Positions 1 to 9,177 of a DNA stretch of 64,000 nucleotides are shown here, in pieces. Position 1 is the first letter of the stretch. Each line of letters begins with the position of its first letter. Below the pieces are notes generated by a model that saw only the letters and a list, made by a program, of their open reading frames with translations, had not been told where the DNA came from and made no database searches. The stretch is from Desulfoprunum benzoelyticum (GTDB lineage Bacteria; Desulfobacterota; Desulfobulbia; Desulfobulbales; Desulfocapsaceae), in NCBI RefSeq assembly GCF_014201505.1, contig NZ_JACHEO010000004.1, positions 1 to 64,000 on the forward strand, given 5' to 3'. A program made the position numbers and the translations under genes.

Positions 1-89
1 ATACAATGGTTGATCGGTTAACCTATATAGCCTTACAAACTCAGCCGGTCCCGCAGCGCCTGCTCAAGCTGGCTGAAGTTCGATGGTAA

Positions 90-242
90 TCAGAATCTGT
101 TATAACTCTGAGCCTTTACTTCGGGGTTGGATTGTATGATTTCGGAGATGGCCTCGGTGAGTGTCTCACCCCGGGCCACACCACCTGACACAAGCAACAA
201 TCCGACCGCAACAACGACTCCGCCACGCTTCAACCACTTCAT
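90..242 (-). pseudogene. N-terminal remnant of a TolC-family outer-membrane channel protein
   Basis: The reading frame encodes a 50-residue product with a good ribosome site (AGGAGG, 5 nt before the ATG at 242). A signal peptide (KR-rich start, then a hydrophobic run) is followed by the characteristic start of the mature TolC/AgpE family, TLTEAISEIIQSNPEVKAQ. The family is normally about 400-500 residues, so nearly all of the beta-barrel and coiled-coil region is missing. After the TGA at 90-92 the same frame stays open for 18 more codons to a TAA at 33-35, which suggests an internal deletion or in-frame nonsense mutation rather than a natural end. No RND or ABC partner lies beside it in the window. 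I infer a dead remnant of an export operon. Confidence 0.6.
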
Positions 243-580
243 ATCCGCCTCCTCTGCTTTCCCCGCTGTGCGGGATGCGATAAAGTCACTCCATCCAGCT
301 ATCTTGCCGCAGCCGATGAAGGAGTTTACAGACAAAAGTACAGGCACGTCGCCATCATCCATCCGATCTCTGATTACAGCCAACTTTTTAATGATCGTGT
401 TTTTTCCATGGAAAGTCAAGGGGGTCTGACAACTATCGATCAACTGGAGGGCCCAGCCGGATCGATCGGGAGGCGGGCGGCACGGCAAAGGTGCCTTTCG
501 ACGCCCCGCTGGCCGCGAATGTCACGGATTCGGCCCGGATCATGAGGAATCCGTTGCTTTCCTGTTATCGAATTGTTACT

Positions 581-599
581 GTTTCAATATAATTGAAAC
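581..599. promoter_or_regulatory. Perfect 8-bp inverted repeat overlapping a TATAAT box
   Basis: GTTTCAAT and ATTGAAAC flank a 3-nt spacer. The centre contains a consensus -10 hexamer TATAAT at 588-593; the matching -35 region (565-570) is weak. The layout suits a repressor operator over the promoter of the small gene starting at 655. The rest of the 243-654 stretch holds no convincing gene on either strand. No regulator gene is visible nearby, and the site may have belonged to the decayed export locus to the left. Confidence 0.4.
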
Positions 600-654
600 G
601 GTTTATGGTCTTTCGAGAGTTGAAAGCCACACCTCACCACGAAAGGAACCGGTC

Positions 655-801
655 ATGACGCCCAGACAGGCAATCCGGATACTGATGCTCAGCCCGATCT
701 ATTTCCGGCTCGAGCCGGCACAACGCAAACAGTTGATCAAGGAATACTGCGATCTGTTCACTCAGGTTATCGCCGAGAGAGAGACGCAATCCGTGAAGTA
801 A
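655..801 (+). CDS. Conserved-looking small hypothetical protein (48 aa)
   Basis: The ATG is preceded by AAGGAA at good spacing and the frame runs to TAA at 799-801. The product is basic and soluble, starting MTPRQAIRILMLSPIYFRL, with an amphipathic C-terminal half and no signal peptide or metal-binding motif. Short proteins with this kind of start are, from memory, found in Geobacter-type genomes, but I know no function. The palindrome with a TATAAT box 55-75 nt upstream may control it. The downstream neighbour plsY is on the opposite strand. Confidence 0.55.
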   Translation: MTPRQAIRILMLSPIYFRLEPAQRKQLIKEYCDLFTQVIAERETQSVK

Positions 802-845
802 ATCCTCCAGCCGCTTTCTGCCGGCTTTGCTGAATTTTCACACAA

Positions 846-1463
846 TCAACCCTTCTTTTTCCCGGTCTTCCAGCTCTTTTCCTGACCCTGCAGCAGGCGG
901 GCGATATTTTCATGATGCTTGACCCAGATCAGGAGCGCCACGACCGTCGCCGTCAGGATCACCGTCGAGGATTGCCCCAGCAGCCAGAGCCAGAGCGGGA
1001 TCAGTCCGGCGGCCAGCAGTGATCCGACCGAAACGAAGCCGGTCAGCCCGACCGCGGCGATAAAGACAGCCAGACTGATGCCGGTCGCCCCCGGCGACAG
1101 GAAGAGAAAGACGCCGAGGCTCGTCGCCACCCCCTTCCCTCCTTTGAAGCCAAGATAGATCGAGAACATGTGGCCGATAACGGCCAGGGCGCCGCAGAGG
1201 CAGACCACGATCTCCTTCTGTTCCGACGCCGGCAGCAGGCGGGCGGCCGCCAGCATCGGCAGGAATCCTTTCAATCCGTCACAGAGAAGGGTCAGGGCCC
1301 CCAGTTTTTTACCGACAACCCGCCCGACATTGGTCGCGCCGATATTGCGGCTTCCCTCCAGGCGGACATCAACGCCTGCCATCCTGCTGATGATCAGCCC
1401 GAACGGCACTGCTCCGAGCAGATAACTGCCACCGAATAAAAGTACACTCTGAAGTTCGATCAT
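846..1463 (-). CDS. plsY: Acyl-phosphate:glycerol-3-phosphate acyltransferase PlsY
   Basis: This 205-residue integral membrane enzyme transfers an acyl group from acyl-phosphate to glycerol-3-phosphate, the first committed step of phospholipid synthesis in the PlsX/PlsY route. Family motifs are clear: the SRNIGATNVGR loop near residue 38 and the GGKGVATSLG loop near residue 105, with multiple hydrophobic helices between. I use the ATG at 1463 (MIELQS), because the frame extends upstream without conserved sequence; no strong Shine-Dalgarno site is visible at either start. The Lys-rich C-terminus (GKKKG) is typical of a cytoplasmic tail. It stands alone, converging with the 48-aa gene. Confidence 0.93.
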   Translation of the reverse strand: MIELQSVLLFGGSYLLGAVPFGLIISRMAGVDVRLEGSRNIGATNVGRVVGKKLGALTLLCDGLKGFLPMLAAARLLPASEQKEIVVCLCGALAVIGHMFSIYLGFKGGKGVATSLGVFLFLSPGATGISLAVFIAAVGLTGFVSVGSLLAAGLIPLWLWLLGQSSTVILTATVVALLIWVKHHENIARLLQGQEKSWKTGKKKG

Positions 1464-1753
1464 ACGGGCACGAAACGAAGATGGTTGTCCACACCGGCCT
1501 TGTCCTCCGGTCAATTGTCCGCCGCAGCCTACCGTACTTTCTCCGGAAAGACAACCTTCGCGCCCTCTCTTCAGCCCGCCGTATGCGGCTCGCCGTCGCT
1601 CCACCGTGCCCGGCAGGAACCGCCCGGATCAGCGCCGGTTATTCCAATGAGAAAGATTCCATTTATCAAATAATCCTTTGACAGAGCATTAAAGCATTAT
1701 ATATTATTCTACAATTAGAGCAGTTACCAACTTTCACCCAAGAGGAGGAGACC

Positions 1754-3106
1754 ATGTACAGACCAGCTTCATTACGAAAACTGGCCTTTGTTCTGTTACT
1801 GCTGTCATTCGTGATGGCAGGTTGCGCCGAACAGAAGCCCACCGGTACGGCGGCATCGCCTGCCGTCTCGGCTGCATCCGTCAAGGAAGCAGCCATTGCC
1901 GCCAAAGAGGTCAAAAATTACAAGGGCATCATCGGTGACGTCTCGAACAAGGCCAAGACCATTTCCATCGCCGTCGGCCCCGAAGGTAAGGCCGAAACGA
2001 TGATGGTCCTGTTCGACGGCAAGACCAAGGGCACCGAATACGCCAAGAAGGGCGACTCGGTCACCATCACCTACGAGATGCGCGACGGTCAGGCGTTCGC
2101 GGTTTCGATCAAGCCCAACCTGGCCAAGCTGCCCGAGGGCGTCACCGAGATCAAGACCGCCGAGCTGCGGGGACTGGTGGAGAAGAATGCCGACATCGCA
2201 TTGTACGACGCCCGCCCGGAAGCCCGCTATGCCCAGTCGCACCTGCCCGGGGCGATCTCGCTCTCCGTCGACAGGATGGCCAAGGACATGGCCGCCGGCC
2301 TGCCCAAGGAGAAGGACAAGCTGCTGGTCTTCTACTGCGGAGGCCCCACGTGAGGCATGTCGACCAAAAACGCCGGTCTGGCGAAAAAACTCGGCTACAC
2401 CAACATCCGTGTCTACCTCGACGGCGAGCCGGCCTGGGCCAAATCGGGCCTGCCGACATTTGCAACCTATGACTTCGTCACCAACGGCAACGTCGTCCTC
2501 ATCGATATCCGCTCCCGGGACAAGGTTGTCGCCGGCCGGATCCCGCGGGCCGTCTCCATCCCTTATTTCAAACTCGAGGACAGGCTTGACGATATCCCCC
2601 GCAACGCCCCGGTCATACTCTACAGCGACGACCTGGAGGAAGTGACGACGGCCATCAACGAAATGCGCGACGACGGCTTCAATTTCGTGGCGGCGGTGAG
2701 AGGCAATTTCCAGGGCTGGGTCGAAAACGGCGGCAAGCTTGTCAAGGGCCCGATCCTCTCCACCGAGATCAACTGGCAGCGCAAACTCGGCAAGGGTGAG
2801 GTATCGGTCGCCGACTTCAAGAAGGCCACCGAAGGCCAGATCCCCAATACCGTCGTCGTCGATGCCCGCACCAAGGAGGAAGTCGCCGAGCTCGGGCTCT
2901 TCAAGAACACCATCAACATCCCGCTCGACGAACTCACCAAACGGATGAACGAACTGCCGAAGGACAAGCAGATCTTCATCCACTGCAGCACCGGCGCCCG
3001 GGCCGACATGGCCTACCAGCAGCTGATCAAGAACGGCTACAACGTCAAGTTCCTGCTGCTCAATATCGAAGACGCCGAGTGCGACTGCGAGATCATCAGG
3101 CCGTAA
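1754..3106 (+). CDS. Selenocysteine-containing triple-rhodanese lipoprotein (UGA at 2351 read as Sec)
   Basis: Read through the in-frame TGA at 2351-2353, the product is 450 residues. A lipoprotein signal peptide ends in FVMAGC (Cys24). Residues ~35-125 form a small non-rhodanese region. Three rhodanese-like domains follow: ~131-235 with active loop YCGGPTU (Cys195 and Sec200), ~245-340 with no active Cys, and ~350-450 with HCSTGARA (Cys411). In related periplasmic rhodaneses the residue after CGGPT is Cys, so UGA sits exactly at a redox residue, and similarity continues unbroken after it (GMSTKNAGLAKKLGY). A GGUCU-loop hairpin lies 3' of the UGA. AGGAGG precedes the ATG, and a strong terminator follows the stop. 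The role is probably envelope sulfur transfer or thiol redox. selA/B/C are not in this window. Confidence 0.88.
2371..2383 (+). promoter_or_regulatory. Bacterial SECIS-like hairpin
   Basis: CGCC (2371-2374) pairs with GGCG (2380-2383) around the 5-nt loop GGUCU, starting 21 nt after the UGA at 2351-2353. The loop matches the GGUCU of the Escherichia coli fdhF SECIS loop that SelB recognises, and the distance falls in the range known for bacterial SECIS elements. The stem is short (4 bp) and flanked by A-runs, so folding should be checked computationally. Confidence 0.7.
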
Positions 3107-3125
3107 CAGGCAGTACTCCTCTCAC

Positions 3126-3164
3126 CACCATACCGGCGAGAACACCCGCCGGTATGGTGTTTTT
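3126..3164 (+). terminator. Rho-independent terminator after the rhodanese selenoprotein
   Basis: A perfect 13-bp stem (CACCATACCGGCG with CGCCGGTATGGTG) closes an 8-nt loop and runs into TTTTT at 3160-3164. It lies 20 nt after the stop of the selenoprotein gene, which argues that 3106, not 2353, is the real gene end. The remaining 284 nt up to the next gene hold no recognisable feature. Confidence 0.9.
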
Positions 3165-3448
3165 CATTCCACTCCCATGGTTCATTGAATCCAGCCCGCA
3201 CCCCTTCTGCCTCGTTCCCCACTTCCTGCCGAGACAGCGTCGGGAAAAGGCAACTGTTCCTCTACCGAAAACAGCCATATCCCGCCGCGATCGCCGCCAC
3301 CCCGACATGCCCCTGGTATCGTGATGTTCCCCTGACATCCGGATGTGACTCGACGCGGTATTCTTCTTCCGGCAGTGGTATCGCCCACACTTTTGCACTA
3401 TATTGAGCCGAGACGGAAACGACCTATCCCACCGACAAGGAAAAAGAC

Positions 3449-4492
3449 ATGCCAAGGCTGCACAGATGTACCCTGGACTGGACCACCCTTCTGCGGCGAA
3501 TTTCACCGAAACCGCCGGCGCTCTCCCTCCTGATACTCTGTGGCCTGATTCCGTTCATTACCGAACCCGCAACGGCCCAGACCACCGACCCGACGGCGGG
3601 ACAGGAACCGACACTGTTCGATAGCGCCCAACAGCGCACCTCGGTGGCGGTCGTTGACGCCGCCCAATGGCTCGACCAGTTTTTTTACGATGAAGCCATC
3701 AGTCAAGAAGAGAACCGGACCCGGATCCGCTTCGAACTGAGCAGCGGCTACACGAGATTCGAGGAGTTCGAAATCAAGCCGAAGATCAGCGGCAGGATCC
3801 ATCTGCCCAATCTCAACAAAAAACTCAATATCCTCATCACCGCCGCCGACGACGAGGAGTTCAGCGCCGACGACAACCCCATCTCGGCCCTTCCCCGTCA
3901 TCAGGGGGCGGAAAATCGTGAGATCAGTGCGGCGCTCCAGTATTTTCTCCGCGAGAGCCCATTGGAAAACATATCGGCAACCCTCGGCGCCTCTTTCGAC
4001 TATCTGTACGCCGGCATCCGCTATCGCCGTTCCCACGACCTCGACTCGTGGCAAGGGCGCCTGGTCAATCGCCTGAATTACTACACCGACGATGAGTGGG
4101 AAGACAAAATCTCCTACGAAATCTGGCGCCCGCTGGGCGAGAAGTGGATCTTCAGGACCAAGGCCACCGTCACCTGGCATGTCGAAGAGGACGGTCTGCC
4201 CCATTCCCTGGTCTTCGCCATGTTCCAGAAAATCAACGATGAAAAGGCCCTGCGCTATGAGATCGGCAACTATTTCGACACCGAAGATTCCTACGAGATG
4301 ACCGACCTGCAGTTCCGGGTGCGCTACCGTCAGCGTTTCCTGCGGGACTGGCTGGTACTGGAAATCGCTCCTCAGGTTGGGTTTCCGGAGGATCATGATC
4401 GCGAGGTCAACCCCGGAATCATCGTCTCCCTCGAGGCCGACACCGGCAACCTGGCGGGAACGAAGGTATTTCCACGGATCTTCAATTTCTGA
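3449..4492 (+). CDS. Putative exported beta-barrel protein of unknown function
   Basis: The product is 347 residues. A basic N-terminus and a hydrophobic segment ending near PATAQT (residues ~25-44) look like a signal peptide. The mature part is rich in alternating polar/hydrophobic stretches with aromatic residues, for example RFELSSGYTRF, YLYAGIRYRR and LQFRVRYRQRF. It ends in IFNF; a terminal Phe is typical of outer-membrane barrels. I do not recognise a named family. An AAGGAA site precedes the ATG. It stands between a terminator and the FKBP/methyltransferase gene 96 nt downstream, which may or may not be co-transcribed. Confidence 0.7.
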   Translation: MPRLHRCTLDWTTLLRRISPKPPALSLLILCGLIPFITEPATAQTTDPTAGQEPTLFDSAQQRTSVAVVDAAQWLDQFFYDEAISQEENRTRIRFELSSGYTRFEEFEIKPKISGRIHLPNLNKKLNILITAADDEEFSADDNPISALPRHQGAENREISAALQYFLRESPLENISATLGASFDYLYAGIRYRRSHDLDSWQGRLVNRLNYYTDDEWEDKISYEIWRPLGEKWIFRTKATVTWHVEEDGLPHSLVFAMFQKINDEKALRYEIGNYFDTEDSYEMTDLQFRVRYRQRFLRDWLVLEIAPQVGFPEDHDREVNPGIIVSLEADTGNLAGTKVFPRIFNF

Positions 4493-4588
4493 CGGGCGAA
4501 GGCGACCGGCGCCGGCACCCGCATCATCCTCCGGCGCCGGAGCACACCAATTCAAATACCTCAACACCCTTTCCCATCGAGGTCAACC

Positions 4589-5797
4589 ATGCAGCGTATC
4601 GACCGGAACAGCAGGGCGGTCATCGAGTTCACCATCACCTGGCACGACCAGGGCATAGATCACCAGGACCGCACCTGGGCCGACCCGGTCAGTTTCTGGC
4701 GGGACGTCATCGACCCGAGGCTGGTCCAGAATCTGTATGGCCAGGGCGTGGGCGGACAGGCCATCGTCGATATTCCCGCCAACCGCTTCTCCCAGCCCTA
4801 TAACCGGAAAAACCTGATCTCCATCCGACCGAAGCAGTTCCGCAGCCACGATCGCTTCGGCAACGACGTCGTTCTCCGCCGGGGCAGGTTTTACCCGCAG
4901 GGCATGCTGGAGGGTGTCGACGGCGTCTTCCGGGTCTCGACCGCCCCCTGCCGTTATCTCGGCACCGAGGGCGACCGCCTGCTGTTCGACCTCAACCATC
5001 CCCTGGCCGGACGTGATCTGCGACTGCAGGCTACCGTCCGGGCCATCCACGCCGTCGGCAAAGAACGGGGCGGCCGCTGTGAGGACTGGCTCGAACGGGC
5101 CAGTGCCGGCGGCCCGGGGATGCAGGCGCCGATCGGTACCGGGGTGGTCGCCGACCTCACCCTCGAAGATCTGCAGCGCATCGATGAACGGCCGGACGAT
5201 ACCTTCTATCGCCAGCCACGGCTGGTGCAGCATCTCGACTCCAGCGCCCGCCGGGAGATCACCGGCAACTACGGCCGGCTGATCCCCGCCGGGGCCAGGG
5301 TACTCGACCTGATGGGCAGTTGGGATTCGCACCTGCCCGACGACCTGGCGCTGGGCGGCCTGACGGTGCTGGGGCTGAATGACGAGGAACTGCGGCGCAA
5401 CCGCCGGGCCGGCGAAACACTGGCCCATGACCTCAACGCCACCCCGCGGCTGCCCTTCGCCGACGCCGCTTTCGACGCGGTGATCTGCACCGCGTCGATC
5501 GAGTACCTGACCGCACCGCACGCCGTCGTGGCCGAGATCCGCCGGGTGCTGCGCCCCGGCGGCCTGGTGGCGATCGCCTTTTCCAACCGCTGGTTCCCGC
5601 CCAAGGCCATCCGGATCTGGACCGAGCTGCACGAATTCGAGCGGCTTGGCCTGGTCACCGACCTGCTGGCGGCGAATGGCGGTTTTTCCGGCCTCTCGAC
5701 CCTGAGCCGCCGAGGACTGCCGCGGCCGGATGACGACCCCCATCAGGAGTTGATGTACAGCGATCCGGTCTTCATGGTCTGGGGCCAGGCCTGCTGA
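4589..5797 (+). CDS. FKBP/SlyD-like domain fused to a SAM-dependent methyltransferase
   Basis: Residues ~10-155 look like a SlyD-type FKBP module: the stretch FDLNHPLAGRDLRLQATV near its end matches the diagnostic SlyD strand, preceded by a flap-like region with a GMLEGVDGVFRV segment. Residues ~225-400 form a class I methyltransferase of the Methyltransf_11 type, with motif I degenerate (VLDLMGSWDSHLP), PRLPFADAAFDAVIC, and LRPGGLVAIAFSNR. I infer a cytoplasmic enzyme in which the FKBP part recognises or folds the protein to be methylated; the substrate is unknown. A SRPBCC protein follows 43 nt downstream and is probably in the same operon. The family-typical GxGxG SAM loop is replaced by MGSW. 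Confidence 0.75.
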   Translation: MQRIDRNSRAVIEFTITWHDQGIDHQDRTWADPVSFWRDVIDPRLVQNLYGQGVGGQAIVDIPANRFSQPYNRKNLISIRPKQFRSHDRFGNDVVLRRGRFYPQGMLEGVDGVFRVSTAPCRYLGTEGDRLLFDLNHPLAGRDLRLQATVRAIHAVGKERGGRCEDWLERASAGGPGMQAPIGTGVVADLTLEDLQRIDERPDDTFYRQPRLVQHLDSSARREITGNYGRLIPAGARVLDLMGSWDSHLPDDLALGGLTVLGLNDEELRRNRRAGETLAHDLNATPRLPFADAAFDAVICTASIEYLTAPHAVVAEIRRVLRPGGLVAIAFSNRWFPPKAIRIWTELHEFERLGLVTDLLAANGGFSGLSTLSRRGLPRPDDDPHQELMYSDPVFMVWGQAC

Positions 5798-5840
5798 GGC
5801 GAAGCCGCAGAATACTGTCCGATACGCAGGAGCACTGATC

Positions 5841-6308
5841 ATGTACACCCTTGTCCGCCGGCAGCGGCTCGCCGCCCCGACCGCAGAGGTCTGGGCCTTT
5901 CTCCAGAACCCGGCCAATCTCGACCGGATCACCCCGCCCGATCTGCGCTTTCGCATCGTCACCGAGGTGCCGGAGATCATGCATGACGGTCTGATCATAG
6001 AGTATCGCATCGCCATCCCGTTCCTCGGCACCCACGCCTGGATCACCGAAATCAAACATGTCCGCCCCGGCCGCTCCTTCGTCGACGAGCAGCGTCTCGG
6101 TCCCTATCGCTTCTGGCACCATTATCACGAGATCGAACCGGCAGACGGCGGCGTCCGGATGCTCGACCGAATCTGTTACCAGCCGCCTTTCGGACCGCTG
6201 GGCCGCCTGCTCCACCCGCTGTACATCCGCCGGACCCTGGATCGCATCTTCGACTATCGTCACGAGCAGTTGGCCGAGCTCCTGAACGGCCGCAGCACCG
6301 CAGGCTGA
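5841..6308 (+). CDS. SRPBCC-family (START/polyketide-cyclase-like) protein
   Basis: This 155-residue protein has the SRPBCC layout: an initial strand (YTLVRRQRLAAPTAEVWAF), the helix FLQNPANLDRITPPDLRF, central strands with GRSFVDEQRLGPYRFWHH, and a long C-terminal helix (RRTLDRIFDYRHEQLAELL). Close relatives are often annotated as cell-division-inhibitor-like or ligand-binding cyclase proteins. They bind hydrophobic ligands in a deep cavity, usually without a conserved catalytic residue. It follows the FKBP/methyltransferase gene by 43 nt, with GCAGGAG before the ATG, so the two probably work together. The ligand is unknown. Confidence 0.85.
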   Translation: MYTLVRRQRLAAPTAEVWAFLQNPANLDRITPPDLRFRIVTEVPEIMHDGLIIEYRIAIPFLGTHAWITEIKHVRPGRSFVDEQRLGPYRFWHHYHEIEPADGGVRMLDRICYQPPFGPLGRLLHPLYIRRTLDRIFDYRHEQLAELLNGRSTAG

Positions 6309-6511
6309 GGAACCTGCACTGCCGCTATCCCAGGAGCTGTACTTTCCCGCCGTTGTGCTTAACGTATAGGCCGTGGCGGAAAACATCCTCCTGTGGTACA
6401 TTAGCGGGGGATTGACCTCACCCCGACCCGACATGCCCGTTAATTTCCCGGCCCGACATTGCCGTCACCGGCCGGGTGAACCAACCCGTTCTATCCGTCA
6501 GGACCCGTACC

Positions 6512-7027
6512 ATGAGTATCCGCAAAATTTTTGAATATCCGGCCCCGGTCCTCCGCCAGGAGACCAGGGCGGTGACGATTTTCGATGACAACCTGCAGCG
6601 ACTGGTCGAAGACATGGCCGAAACGATGTACGATGCGCCGGGCATAGGTCTGGCCGCACCGCAGATCGGCGAGCCGCTGAAGCTGATCGTGGTCGACATG
6701 ACCAAAGAGAAAGGGGGCGTGCGCGACTATATGGCCATGGTCAACCCCGAGATCACCGTCAAGGAAGGCCACCAGCTCGACGAGGAAGGCTGCCTCAGCG
6801 TTCCCGGCCTGACCTCGAAGGTCAAGCGCTCCAGAAAGATCGCCGTCAGCTACCAGGACCTCGCCGGCAACCGCCACGAACTGGAGACCGATAACCGTTT
6901 CGCCGTCGTCCTCCAGCACGAGATCGACCACATCAACGGCATCCTCTTTCTCGATCACCTCAGTCCGCTGAAACGGGCCCTGTACAAGAAGAAGGTAAAA
7001 AAATGGCATGCCGAGGAACAGACCTGA
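6512..7027 (+). CDS. def: Peptide deformylase
   Basis: This 171-residue metalloenzyme removes the formyl group from N-terminal methionine of nascent proteins. All three signature motifs are present: GIGLAAPQIG (~44-53), EGCLSVPG (~91-98, with the metal-binding Cys) and QHEIDHINGILF (~134-145, with two metal His and the catalytic Glu). The start at 6512 (MSIRKIFEYP) is chosen because deformylases begin a few residues before this segment; the frame is open 12 codons further upstream. It is immediately followed by fmt, the enzyme that adds the formyl group to initiator tRNA. Confidence 0.96.
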   Translation: MSIRKIFEYPAPVLRQETRAVTIFDDNLQRLVEDMAETMYDAPGIGLAAPQIGEPLKLIVVDMTKEKGGVRDYMAMVNPEITVKEGHQLDEEGCLSVPGLTSKVKRSRKIAVSYQDLAGNRHELETDNRFAVVLQHEIDHINGILFLDHLSPLKRALYKKKVKKWHAEEQT

Positions 7028-7028
7028 A

Positions 7029-7979
7029 ATGACCACGACGCCGCCGCTCCGGGTGGTCTTCATGGGCACGCCCGATTTCGCCGTCGCCAGCCTGCAGGCG
7101 CTGCTGGACGGCCCCGATGAGGTCGTCGCCGTCATCAGCCAACCGGACCGGCCGAAAGGCCGGGGCAAGAAACTCAGCCCGCCGCCGGTCAAGACCCTCG
7201 CCGCGGCGCACGGCATCCCGGTGCTGCAGCCGTTGAAGATCCGCACCGAGGCCTTCCGCGACGAGCTCCTGGCCTTCAACCCCGATCTGGTCGTCGTCGC
7301 CGCCTACGGCCGCATCCTGCCGCCTTCCCTGCTCCACCTCGCTCCCTTCGGGGCGATCAACGTCCATGGCTCGCTGCTGCCCCGCCACCGGGGCGCCGCG
7401 CCGGTCCAGTGGGCGATCATCAACGGCGACCGGGAGGTCGGGGTGACGATCATCCAGATGGACGAGGGGATGGACACCGGCGACATCCTGCTGGCCGAAG
7501 CCATGACCGCCGATCCGGACGAGACCGCCGGCAGCCTGTTCGTCAAGCTGGCCGAGCTCGGCGGCCGCACCCTGCGACGGGCGATCGACCGGCTCAAGGC
7601 CGGGAACCTGCCGCCGACCCCCCAGGACCACAGCCGCGCCACTGCCGCGCCGATGCTGAAGAAAGAAGACGGCATCATCGACTGGAGCCTGCCCGCCGAG
7701 CGGCTGCACTGCCTGATCCGCGGTCTCGACCCCTGGCCCGCCGCCTCCTGCCGGATCGGCGACCAGCGTTGCAATCTGTTCTCGCCCGAGGTCATCCACA
7801 AGGACAGCGAGGCGGCCCCGGGCACCGTCGTCGCCGCCACCAAAGAGGGGCTGCTGATCGCCACCGGCTACAACCTGCTGCTGATCCGGGAGATCCAGCC
7901 GGAAGGGCGCAAACGGATGGCCGTCTCGGCCTTTCTCTGCGGCCATCCGCTCACCCCCGGCACGCTCCTTGCGCCCTGA
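7029..7979 (+). CDS. fmt: Methionyl-tRNA formyltransferase
   Basis: This 316-residue enzyme transfers a formyl group from 10-formyl-tetrahydrofolate to Met-tRNA(fMet). The N-terminal formyltransferase fold shows VVFMGTPDFAV and the catalytic INVHGSLLPRHRGAAPVQWA region (~Asn106/His108), followed by the linker and the C-terminal OB-fold tRNA-binding domain (WPAASCRIGDQRCNLFSPEV onwards). The ATG at 7029 lies 1 nt after the def stop, so the two are translationally coupled. An in-frame ATG seven codons upstream would overlap def and adds nothing conserved. Normal length. Confidence 0.96.
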   Translation: MTTTPPLRVVFMGTPDFAVASLQALLDGPDEVVAVISQPDRPKGRGKKLSPPPVKTLAAAHGIPVLQPLKIRTEAFRDELLAFNPDLVVVAAYGRILPPSLLHLAPFGAINVHGSLLPRHRGAAPVQWAIINGDREVGVTIIQMDEGMDTGDILLAEAMTADPDETAGSLFVKLAELGGRTLRRAIDRLKAGNLPPTPQDHSRATAAPMLKKEDGIIDWSLPAERLHCLIRGLDPWPAASCRIGDQRCNLFSPEVIHKDSEAAPGTVVAATKEGLLIATGYNLLLIREIQPEGRKRMAVSAFLCGHPLTPGTLLAP

Positions 7980-7992
7980 GCAGCGGTCGACC

Positions 7993-9177
7993 ATGCCCCC
8001 GACCGCCACCATCGCCTACCTCGACTGTTTCGCCGGCATCAGCGGCGACATGGTGCTTGCCGCCCTGATCGACGCCGGCCTGCCGCCCGAAGTCCTGCGC
8101 CGGGGTGTGGACCGGCTGGGCCTCGGCCCCGTCGACCTCGACATCCAGACGACGCGGCAGCAGGGCCTGCGTGCTGTCCGGGTTCAGGTTGGCGGCGGGG
8201 GCGATCAGCCGCTGCGCACCTTGGCCGATCTCCTCGCCATCCTTCACCGCAGCGGCCTGGCCGCGGAAATCACCGCTCCTGCCGGCCGGGTCTTCCACCT
8301 GCTGGCCGAGGCCGAGGCCAAAGTCCACGGGACGTCGATCGACACGGTCCATTTCCACGAGATCGGCGCCGTCGATACGGTCGTCGATGTCGTCGGGGCA
8401 ATGATCGGCCTCCACCATCTCGGGATCGGCGAACTTGTTTCCTCACCCGTCCCCTTAGGTCACGGCTTCATCGACTGCGCCCACGGCCGCCTGCCGCTGC
8501 CGGCCCCGGCAGTCTGCGAACTACTGCGGCAGGTGCCGGTCTACGGCATAGACTGCACCACCGAAACGGTGACCCCGACCGGGGCCGCCCTGCTCAAATC
8601 CCTGGCCACCGGTTTCGGGCCGATGCCGCCAATGACCATCGCCGCCACCGGCTGCGGCGCCGGCAGCCGGCCCCTGGCCGGGAACCGTCCCAACCTGCTG
8701 CGGCTGATCGTCGGCACCCAGCGGCCGGTGGCGGAAGCGCAGCGGGTGGAGATCATCGAAACCAACCTCGACGACTGGAGCCCCGAAGGTTTTCCCTACC
8801 TCAGTGAACTGCTGCTGGCCTCCGGCGCCCTCGATGTCAACATCGCCCCGATCCAGATGAAGAAGGGCCGCCCGGCCTTCCGCCTCCAGGTCATCTGCGA
8901 TCCCGTTCACGGGGACGTGATCAAGGCCGCCATCCTCTCCGAGACCACTGCCATCGGCCTGCGCTTCCGGACGGAGGAGCGGCTGACCCTGGGGCGCGAA
9001 CCGGTGATGGTCGCCACCCGCTGGGGCAGCGTCGCCGCCAAGCGGGTGATGCGTCCCTCCGGGGCGGAGATCTGCCCGGAATACGAGGAATGCCGCCGGA
9101 TCGCCGCCGATCACCAGGTGCCGCTGCCGGAGGTCTACCGCGAAGTTCTGCGGGCGGGGGAGGAAAAGCCGCGATGA
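7993..9177 (+). CDS. larC: Nickel-pincer cofactor biosynthesis protein LarC
   Basis: This 394-residue protein begins with the family hallmark YLDCFAGISGDMVLAALIDAG. It also contains the HFHEIGAVDTVVDVVGA segment, ETVTPTGAALL, and the C-terminal half with ETNLDDWSPE and MKKGRPAFRLQV. LarC inserts nickel into the pyridinium-type pincer cofactor of lactate racemase and related enzymes. In Lactobacillus the two halves are joined by a programmed frameshift; here they form one continuous frame. LarB, LarE and LarA are not in the window. It sits 13 nt after fmt and overlaps pgpA by 4 nt, so it is part of a def-fmt-larC-pgpA operon. Confidence 0.9.
   Translation: MPPTATIAYLDCFAGISGDMVLAALIDAGLPPEVLRRGVDRLGLGPVDLDIQTTRQQGLRAVRVQVGGGGDQPLRTLADLLAILHRSGLAAEITAPAGRVFHLLAEAEAKVHGTSIDTVHFHEIGAVDTVVDVVGAMIGLHHLGIGELVSSPVPLGHGFIDCAHGRLPLPAPAVCELLRQVPVYGIDCTTETVTPTGAALLKSLATGFGPMPPMTIAATGCGAGSRPLAGNRPNLLRLIVGTQRPVAEAQRVEIIETNLDDWSPEGFPYLSELLLASGALDVNIAPIQMKKGRPAFRLQVICDPVHGDVIKAAILSETTAIGLRFRTEERLTLGREPVMVATRWGSVAAKRVMRPSGAEICPEYEECRRIAADHQVPLPEVYREVLRAGEEKPR

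Follow-up and report, generated by a model that had tools for sequence, protein, structure and literature searches.

Does the TGA at 2351-2353 end a gene in this stretch of Desulfoprunum benzoelyticum DNA, or is it read as selenocysteine (Sec)? Throughout, coordinates are positions in the window, that is, the whole stretch of 64,000 nt that was analysed, and all features of the gene lie on its forward (+) strand. Translation confirmed what a first-pass annotation had read from the letters, namely that the frame 1754-3106 is broken only once, by this TGA after CGGPT. The interrupting codon is residue 200 and stands directly 3′ of YCGGPT; the frame then runs on as GMSTKNAGLAKKLGY... and ends with a TAA at 3104-3106. 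Ordinary ORF calling gave exactly the two pieces that had been expected of automatic callers, 1754-2353 (199 aa) and 2357-3106 (249 aa). Read through, with UGA200 as Sec, translation and homologue alignment give a complete gene of 450 codons plus TAA (1754-3106). A strong sigma-70-like promoter match (TTGACA-16-TATATT, 1678-1705), which agrees with the consensus at 11 of 12 positions in a scan and is a match rather than proof, and a strong terminator-like hairpin of 13 pairs plus a T run (3126-3159), likewise a consensus-type match only, bracket the frame, so that the whole of it looks like one transcript. Judged from sequence, the gene almost certainly encodes one selenoprotein, with Sec placed at residue 200 by UGA recoding.

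Architecture of the read-through protein

Pfam places three rhodanese domains (PF00581) in the read-through protein (E 8.9e-37; 126.1 bits versus a gathering score of 22.2). The N-terminus, LLLLSFVMAGC24, fits a signal peptide with a lipobox, VMAGC, and a lipid-anchor Cys24 (1754-1825); this assignment is a match to the lipobox pattern and not the output of a dedicated predictor. The MAGC at Cys24 supports the earlier description of the protein as a lipoprotein, and the product is probably exported and lipid-anchored. In the structure model, the first ~47 residues are of low confidence or form a linker. They are followed by a small five-stranded beta domain (residues 54-121; 1913-2116), modelled with pLDDT mostly of 75-95 and marked in the alignment by the conserved motif KAKTISI.VG, for which no Pfam family scored above its cut-off.

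Rhodanese domain 1 (2159-2443) carries the Sec. Its active loop is C195-GGPT-U200, in which the UGA codon (2351-2353) specifies the final residue of a C-x4-U motif, five residues past the active-site Cys195 (codon 2336-2338). In the model, residues 195-201 form the loop that joins strand 190-194 to helix 202-212. Domain 2 (2480-2725) has an active loop, LYSDDLEE, without Cys and is probably structural, and domain 3 (2843-3055) has a CSTGAR loop with Cys411 (codon 2984-2986). In an alignment of 70 sequences, Cys195 is nearly invariant and Cys411 is invariant. The best fold matches of the model are rhodaneses, multi-domain ones foremost. The multi-domain rhodaneses 1yt8, YnjE and EanB share the rhodanese fold with the window protein but lack Sec and differ in domain arrangement, with whole-chain TM-scores of only ~0.2. 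The solved rhodanese fold of BH2092 (PDB 3nhv, 3o3w) has a Cys-x4-Cys loop, CWGPAC, that aligns to C195-x4-U200, again without Sec.

Conservation and decoding of the UGA

Among 58 related genomes, most encode a full-length protein that is interrupted by a single TGA. Across the family, order and phylum (the phylum being sampled at one genome per species), the column of the UGA holds TGA at 61 sites and Cys at 19, in more than 20 genera, which bears out the expectation that Cys aligns with the UGA in related rhodaneses. Both halves align as one protein with tens of homologues, and the TGA falls mostly in the same column; the arrangement is therefore not a matter of chance. Homologues with Cys at the site are single continuous proteins. 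Measured against the closest relative, which is 78% identical, dN/dS is 0.21 upstream of the TGA and 0.20 downstream. At least 7-9 changes between Sec and Cys are needed on a tree of 76 rows (60 UGA and 16 Cys, after removal of near-copies and remote rows), a quick tree built without the site columns and with support from SH-aLRT only. As a separate observation, the copy in Desulfobulbus sp. Tol-SR is split upstream of the UGA into residues 1-132 and 188-450, by a frameshift or an assembly error.

The first-pass annotation had proposed searching the genome for selA, selB, selC and selD as a check, and all four are present: selA (632.4 bits), selB (341.7 bits, over the cut-off), two selD genes (372.8 and 371.1 bits) and a tRNA-Sec, selC (69 bits; anticodon tca by ARAGORN). 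Both selD genes (L038, G000:C13:58565-59512; L039, C2:284195-285121) themselves contain an in-frame TGA and are probably selenoprotein SelDs. One relative has a second, shorter selB match, over the cut-off, adjoining a second tRNA-Sec (G044:C104:7084-8328), and additional tRNA-Sec genes occur in other relatives, G007 and G023 among them. Across the phylum, selB is found in all 32 genomes that have the family, and in 270 of 296 genomes overall; as nearly all genomes have selB, comparing its presence with the Sec or Cys state across genomes has no power. TGA is the usual stop, ending 15 of the 21 nominal window ORFs checked, and a general change of the code is thereby excluded.

The strongest evidence for recoding is a bacterial SECIS (bSECIS) hairpin at 2371-2383, CGCC-GGUCU-GGCG, whose apical loop (2375-2379) lies 21 nt after the UGA. 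The first-pass annotation was silent on it, though the interval it had marked ends there. The bSECIS model describes a loop of 3-9 nt, a stem of 4-16 bp, a G in the first two loop positions, a spacing of 16-37 nt and an MFE of <= -7.5 kcal/mol (PMC13188914). The loop of 5 nt, stem of 4 bp, GG and spacing of 21 nt seen here are all within these limits, and, against the model limit of -7.5 kcal/mol, the MFE is -11.3 kcal/mol for the 50-nt element and -6.0 kcal/mol for the bare hairpin. The 50-nt element is no more stable than its shuffles (z -0.79), a synonymous-codon energy test gave p 0.39, and a search of Rfam returned no SECIS match. Since the folding energy of the whole element is uninformative, conservation in register was used as the test for a SECIS, and it is in this conservation, not in energy, that the signal of the hairpin lies.

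In the first set of genes, the complete four-pair stem is present in 41 of 41 UGA genes and in 1 of 11 Cys genes. Redrawing synonymous codons left the hairpin in a mean of 5.2 of the 41 (maximum 12 in 1000 draws), and sliding the register left it in 0-3 of 41. The wider set gave the same four pairs at 61/61 UGA sites versus 1/19 Cys sites. The covariation score is 0.279 versus 0.137 when shuffled, and both sides change in 6 of 7 pairs. Such raw site counts overstate independence because the sequences are related, which a paired test does not: of 7 independent Sec/Cys pairs on supported branches, on average 6.8 show the hairpin tracking the codon, and none shows the opposite (sign test p ~0.016). 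Given the Sec genes and a conserved, covarying hairpin 3′ of the UGA, residue 200 is where SelB is expected to place Sec. The insertion of Sec proposed in the first-pass annotation is thus supported by the machinery, by the shared Cys/UGA column and by the conserved hairpin.

Two other readings of the UGA have to be weighed against recoding. If it were a true stop, the locus would be a disrupted pseudogene, or else two separate genes of 199 aa and 249 aa, the second translated by re-initiation at ATG 2357. Standard callers do report two ORFs, TGA is the customary stop in this genome, and the ATG stands only two codons on. However, dozens of genomes share the TGA at this residue, and the sequence on either side of it is under purifying selection; the recurrence in dozens of other genomes also excludes the sequencing error that had been named as a possible refutation. 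The downstream ATG is not conserved, being present at 39 of the 61 UGA sites. The Cys homologues are continuous, and a split would halve one rhodanese domain. We regard a true stop as very improbable. More improbable still is the decoding of the UGA as some other residue, either Trp through a change of code or whatever non-specific read-through would supply. An open frame does not by itself identify the amino acid, but with TGA as the usual stop, Cys and not Trp in the non-UGA forms, and a hairpin and Sec machinery both present, the residue is far better explained as Sec. Pseudogene, frameshift, Trp recoding and re-initiation were accordingly considered and rejected.

Recoding at residue 200 has a practical side, as the gene is a clean case of a selenoprotein that is open to testing but would be cut short by gene callers. 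The comparative set is large and includes several joint switches of the codon and the SECIS hairpin, which makes it useful for studies of Sec gain and loss.

Known relatives and possible function

Selenocysteine rhodaneses were already known, as the first-pass annotation had stated (PMC13188914, PMC9312934, PMC2398784), and the gain here is a well-documented further member with a conserved recoding signal. Rhodanese selenoproteins have been on record since 2005, as form 1 (UxxS), form 2 (UxxG), form 3 (CxU), form 4 (UxxG) and form 5, TsoB (UxxxxU) (PMC13188914). The UGMS of the window protein fits the UxxS of form 1 (PF00581; WP_010941598.1; PMC13188914, PMC9312934) at the level of the motif, and UxxS occurs at 53 of the 61 UGA sites of the family. 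The rhodanese-related (seleno)protein rhodanese_LYCAU (NF041203) differs in having CxU in place of Cx4U, and the window protein scores 66.8 bits against that NCBIfam model, below the cut-off of 115.

TsoB (NF045694, a rhodanese/DsbD fusion-like protein) shares with the window protein a Sec where the latter has residue 200. It differs in having a second Sec at the position of Cys195, where the window protein has CxxxxU, and in possessing a DsbD-like membrane part that the window protein lacks; the score of the latter against NF045694, 52.7 bits, is far below the cut-off of 805. The same genome also encodes a TsoB of its own (G000:C13:13773-14084; L126, 214-1965, minus strand), which scores 1014 bits against that cut-off. 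In this TsoB a single rhodanese loop, VFYUAGLTU, contains two in-frame TGA codons, and the second UGA is followed at 21 nt, the same spacing as in the window gene, by a hairpin, GGCC-CGGGU-GGCC.

Rhodaneses carry their persulfide on the first Cys of the active loop. The most likely function of the window protein would be transfer or reduction of sulfane sulfur at the envelope by the Cys195/Sec200 pair, and we give the particular sulfur mechanism that follows about an even chance of being right. With SelA, SelD and tRNA-Sec encoded in the genome, SelB would insert Sec at residue 200 by way of the hairpin at 2371-2383, and the product would then be exported and anchored by lipid at the envelope. 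Sulfane sulfur of thiosulfate or polysulfide would pass to a cysteine, giving a persulfide on Cys411 of domain 3, on Cys195 of domain 1, or on both. Sec200 may then attack the Cys195 persulfide, so that sulfide is released or the sulfur is passed on and a Cys195-Sec200 selenenyl-sulfide is left. An envelope reductant would finally reduce the Cys195-Sec200 bond, the candidates being the TsoB-type DsbD fusion of the same genome and, in a sister clade, a c-type haem. Coupling to electrons is proposed because TsoB occurs in the same genome and because half of the family bears a haem motif, with polysulfide-reductase-type neighbours next to some of the Cys forms. If the sulfur role is true, the protein becomes a new candidate among the enzymes of sulfur reduction and disproportionation in Desulfobulbales, pathways in which the initial steps are still to be settled (PMC3739170, PMC8780430).

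The Sec might instead serve in the reduction of peroxide or of selenite and tellurite, or in handling metals at the envelope, as the extHIJKL cluster of Geobacter sulfurreducens would suggest. ExtH is also an envelope rhodanese-type lipoprotein of similar size (49 kDa), and it is encoded in a cluster where the reduction of selenite and tellurite suffers when extI is lost (PMC6148476, PMC5877670). ExtH differs in sitting in an electron-conduit cluster and is not described as a selenoprotein (PMC6148476, PMC5877670). The window gene is not flanked by ext-like genes: such a conduit would have genes for a porin, a small periplasmic protein and a multihaem cytochrome next to it, and no multihaem cytochrome occurs among the ORFs around the gene. 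The Cys411 in a classical CxxGxR loop and the three rhodanese folds favour sulfane-sulfur chemistry, and those family neighbours that are informative are of polysulfide-reductase type. We consider such a peroxide, selenite/tellurite or metal role rather unlikely, and prefer sulfane-sulfur transfer or reduction.

The wider family and its gene neighbourhoods

Taken together, these proteins can be tentatively grouped as a phylum-wide family, without a name so far, of exported triple-rhodaneses with a C-x4-Sec loop. They may carry out electron-coupled sulfane-sulfur chemistry, as polysulfide or thiosulfate reduction or as the reverse in sulfur disproportionation. One clade would be lipid-anchored or secreted, and the other would bear a covalent c-type haem on its own chain and, in some Cys forms, have a PsrA/NrfD-type molybdoenzyme partner.

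The window gene is a solitary gene, and comparison with its relatives shows no functional neighbour that is conserved. Conservation beside it is limited to a divergent PlsY-like gene, shared with a few relatives, and to a downstream ORF, shared within the genus only. This downstream ORF (3449-4492) encodes 347 aa with a signal-like N-terminus and has no Pfam match.

In about half of the family, the rhodanese chain itself bears a c-type haem motif at the N-terminus, a feature that requires one change on the tree. In three genomes, Cys forms with the haem motif (L113, L114 and L115) lie between a DUF3373 gene and genes for a PsrA-type molybdopterin oxidoreductase together with NrfD and/or FeS proteins. 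A degenerate relative without the domain 1 cysteine (L112 in genome G306, 49-7996) lies 3′ of two large multihaem cytochrome genes, with 16 and 13 CxxCH motifs, a setting reminiscent of electron conduits.
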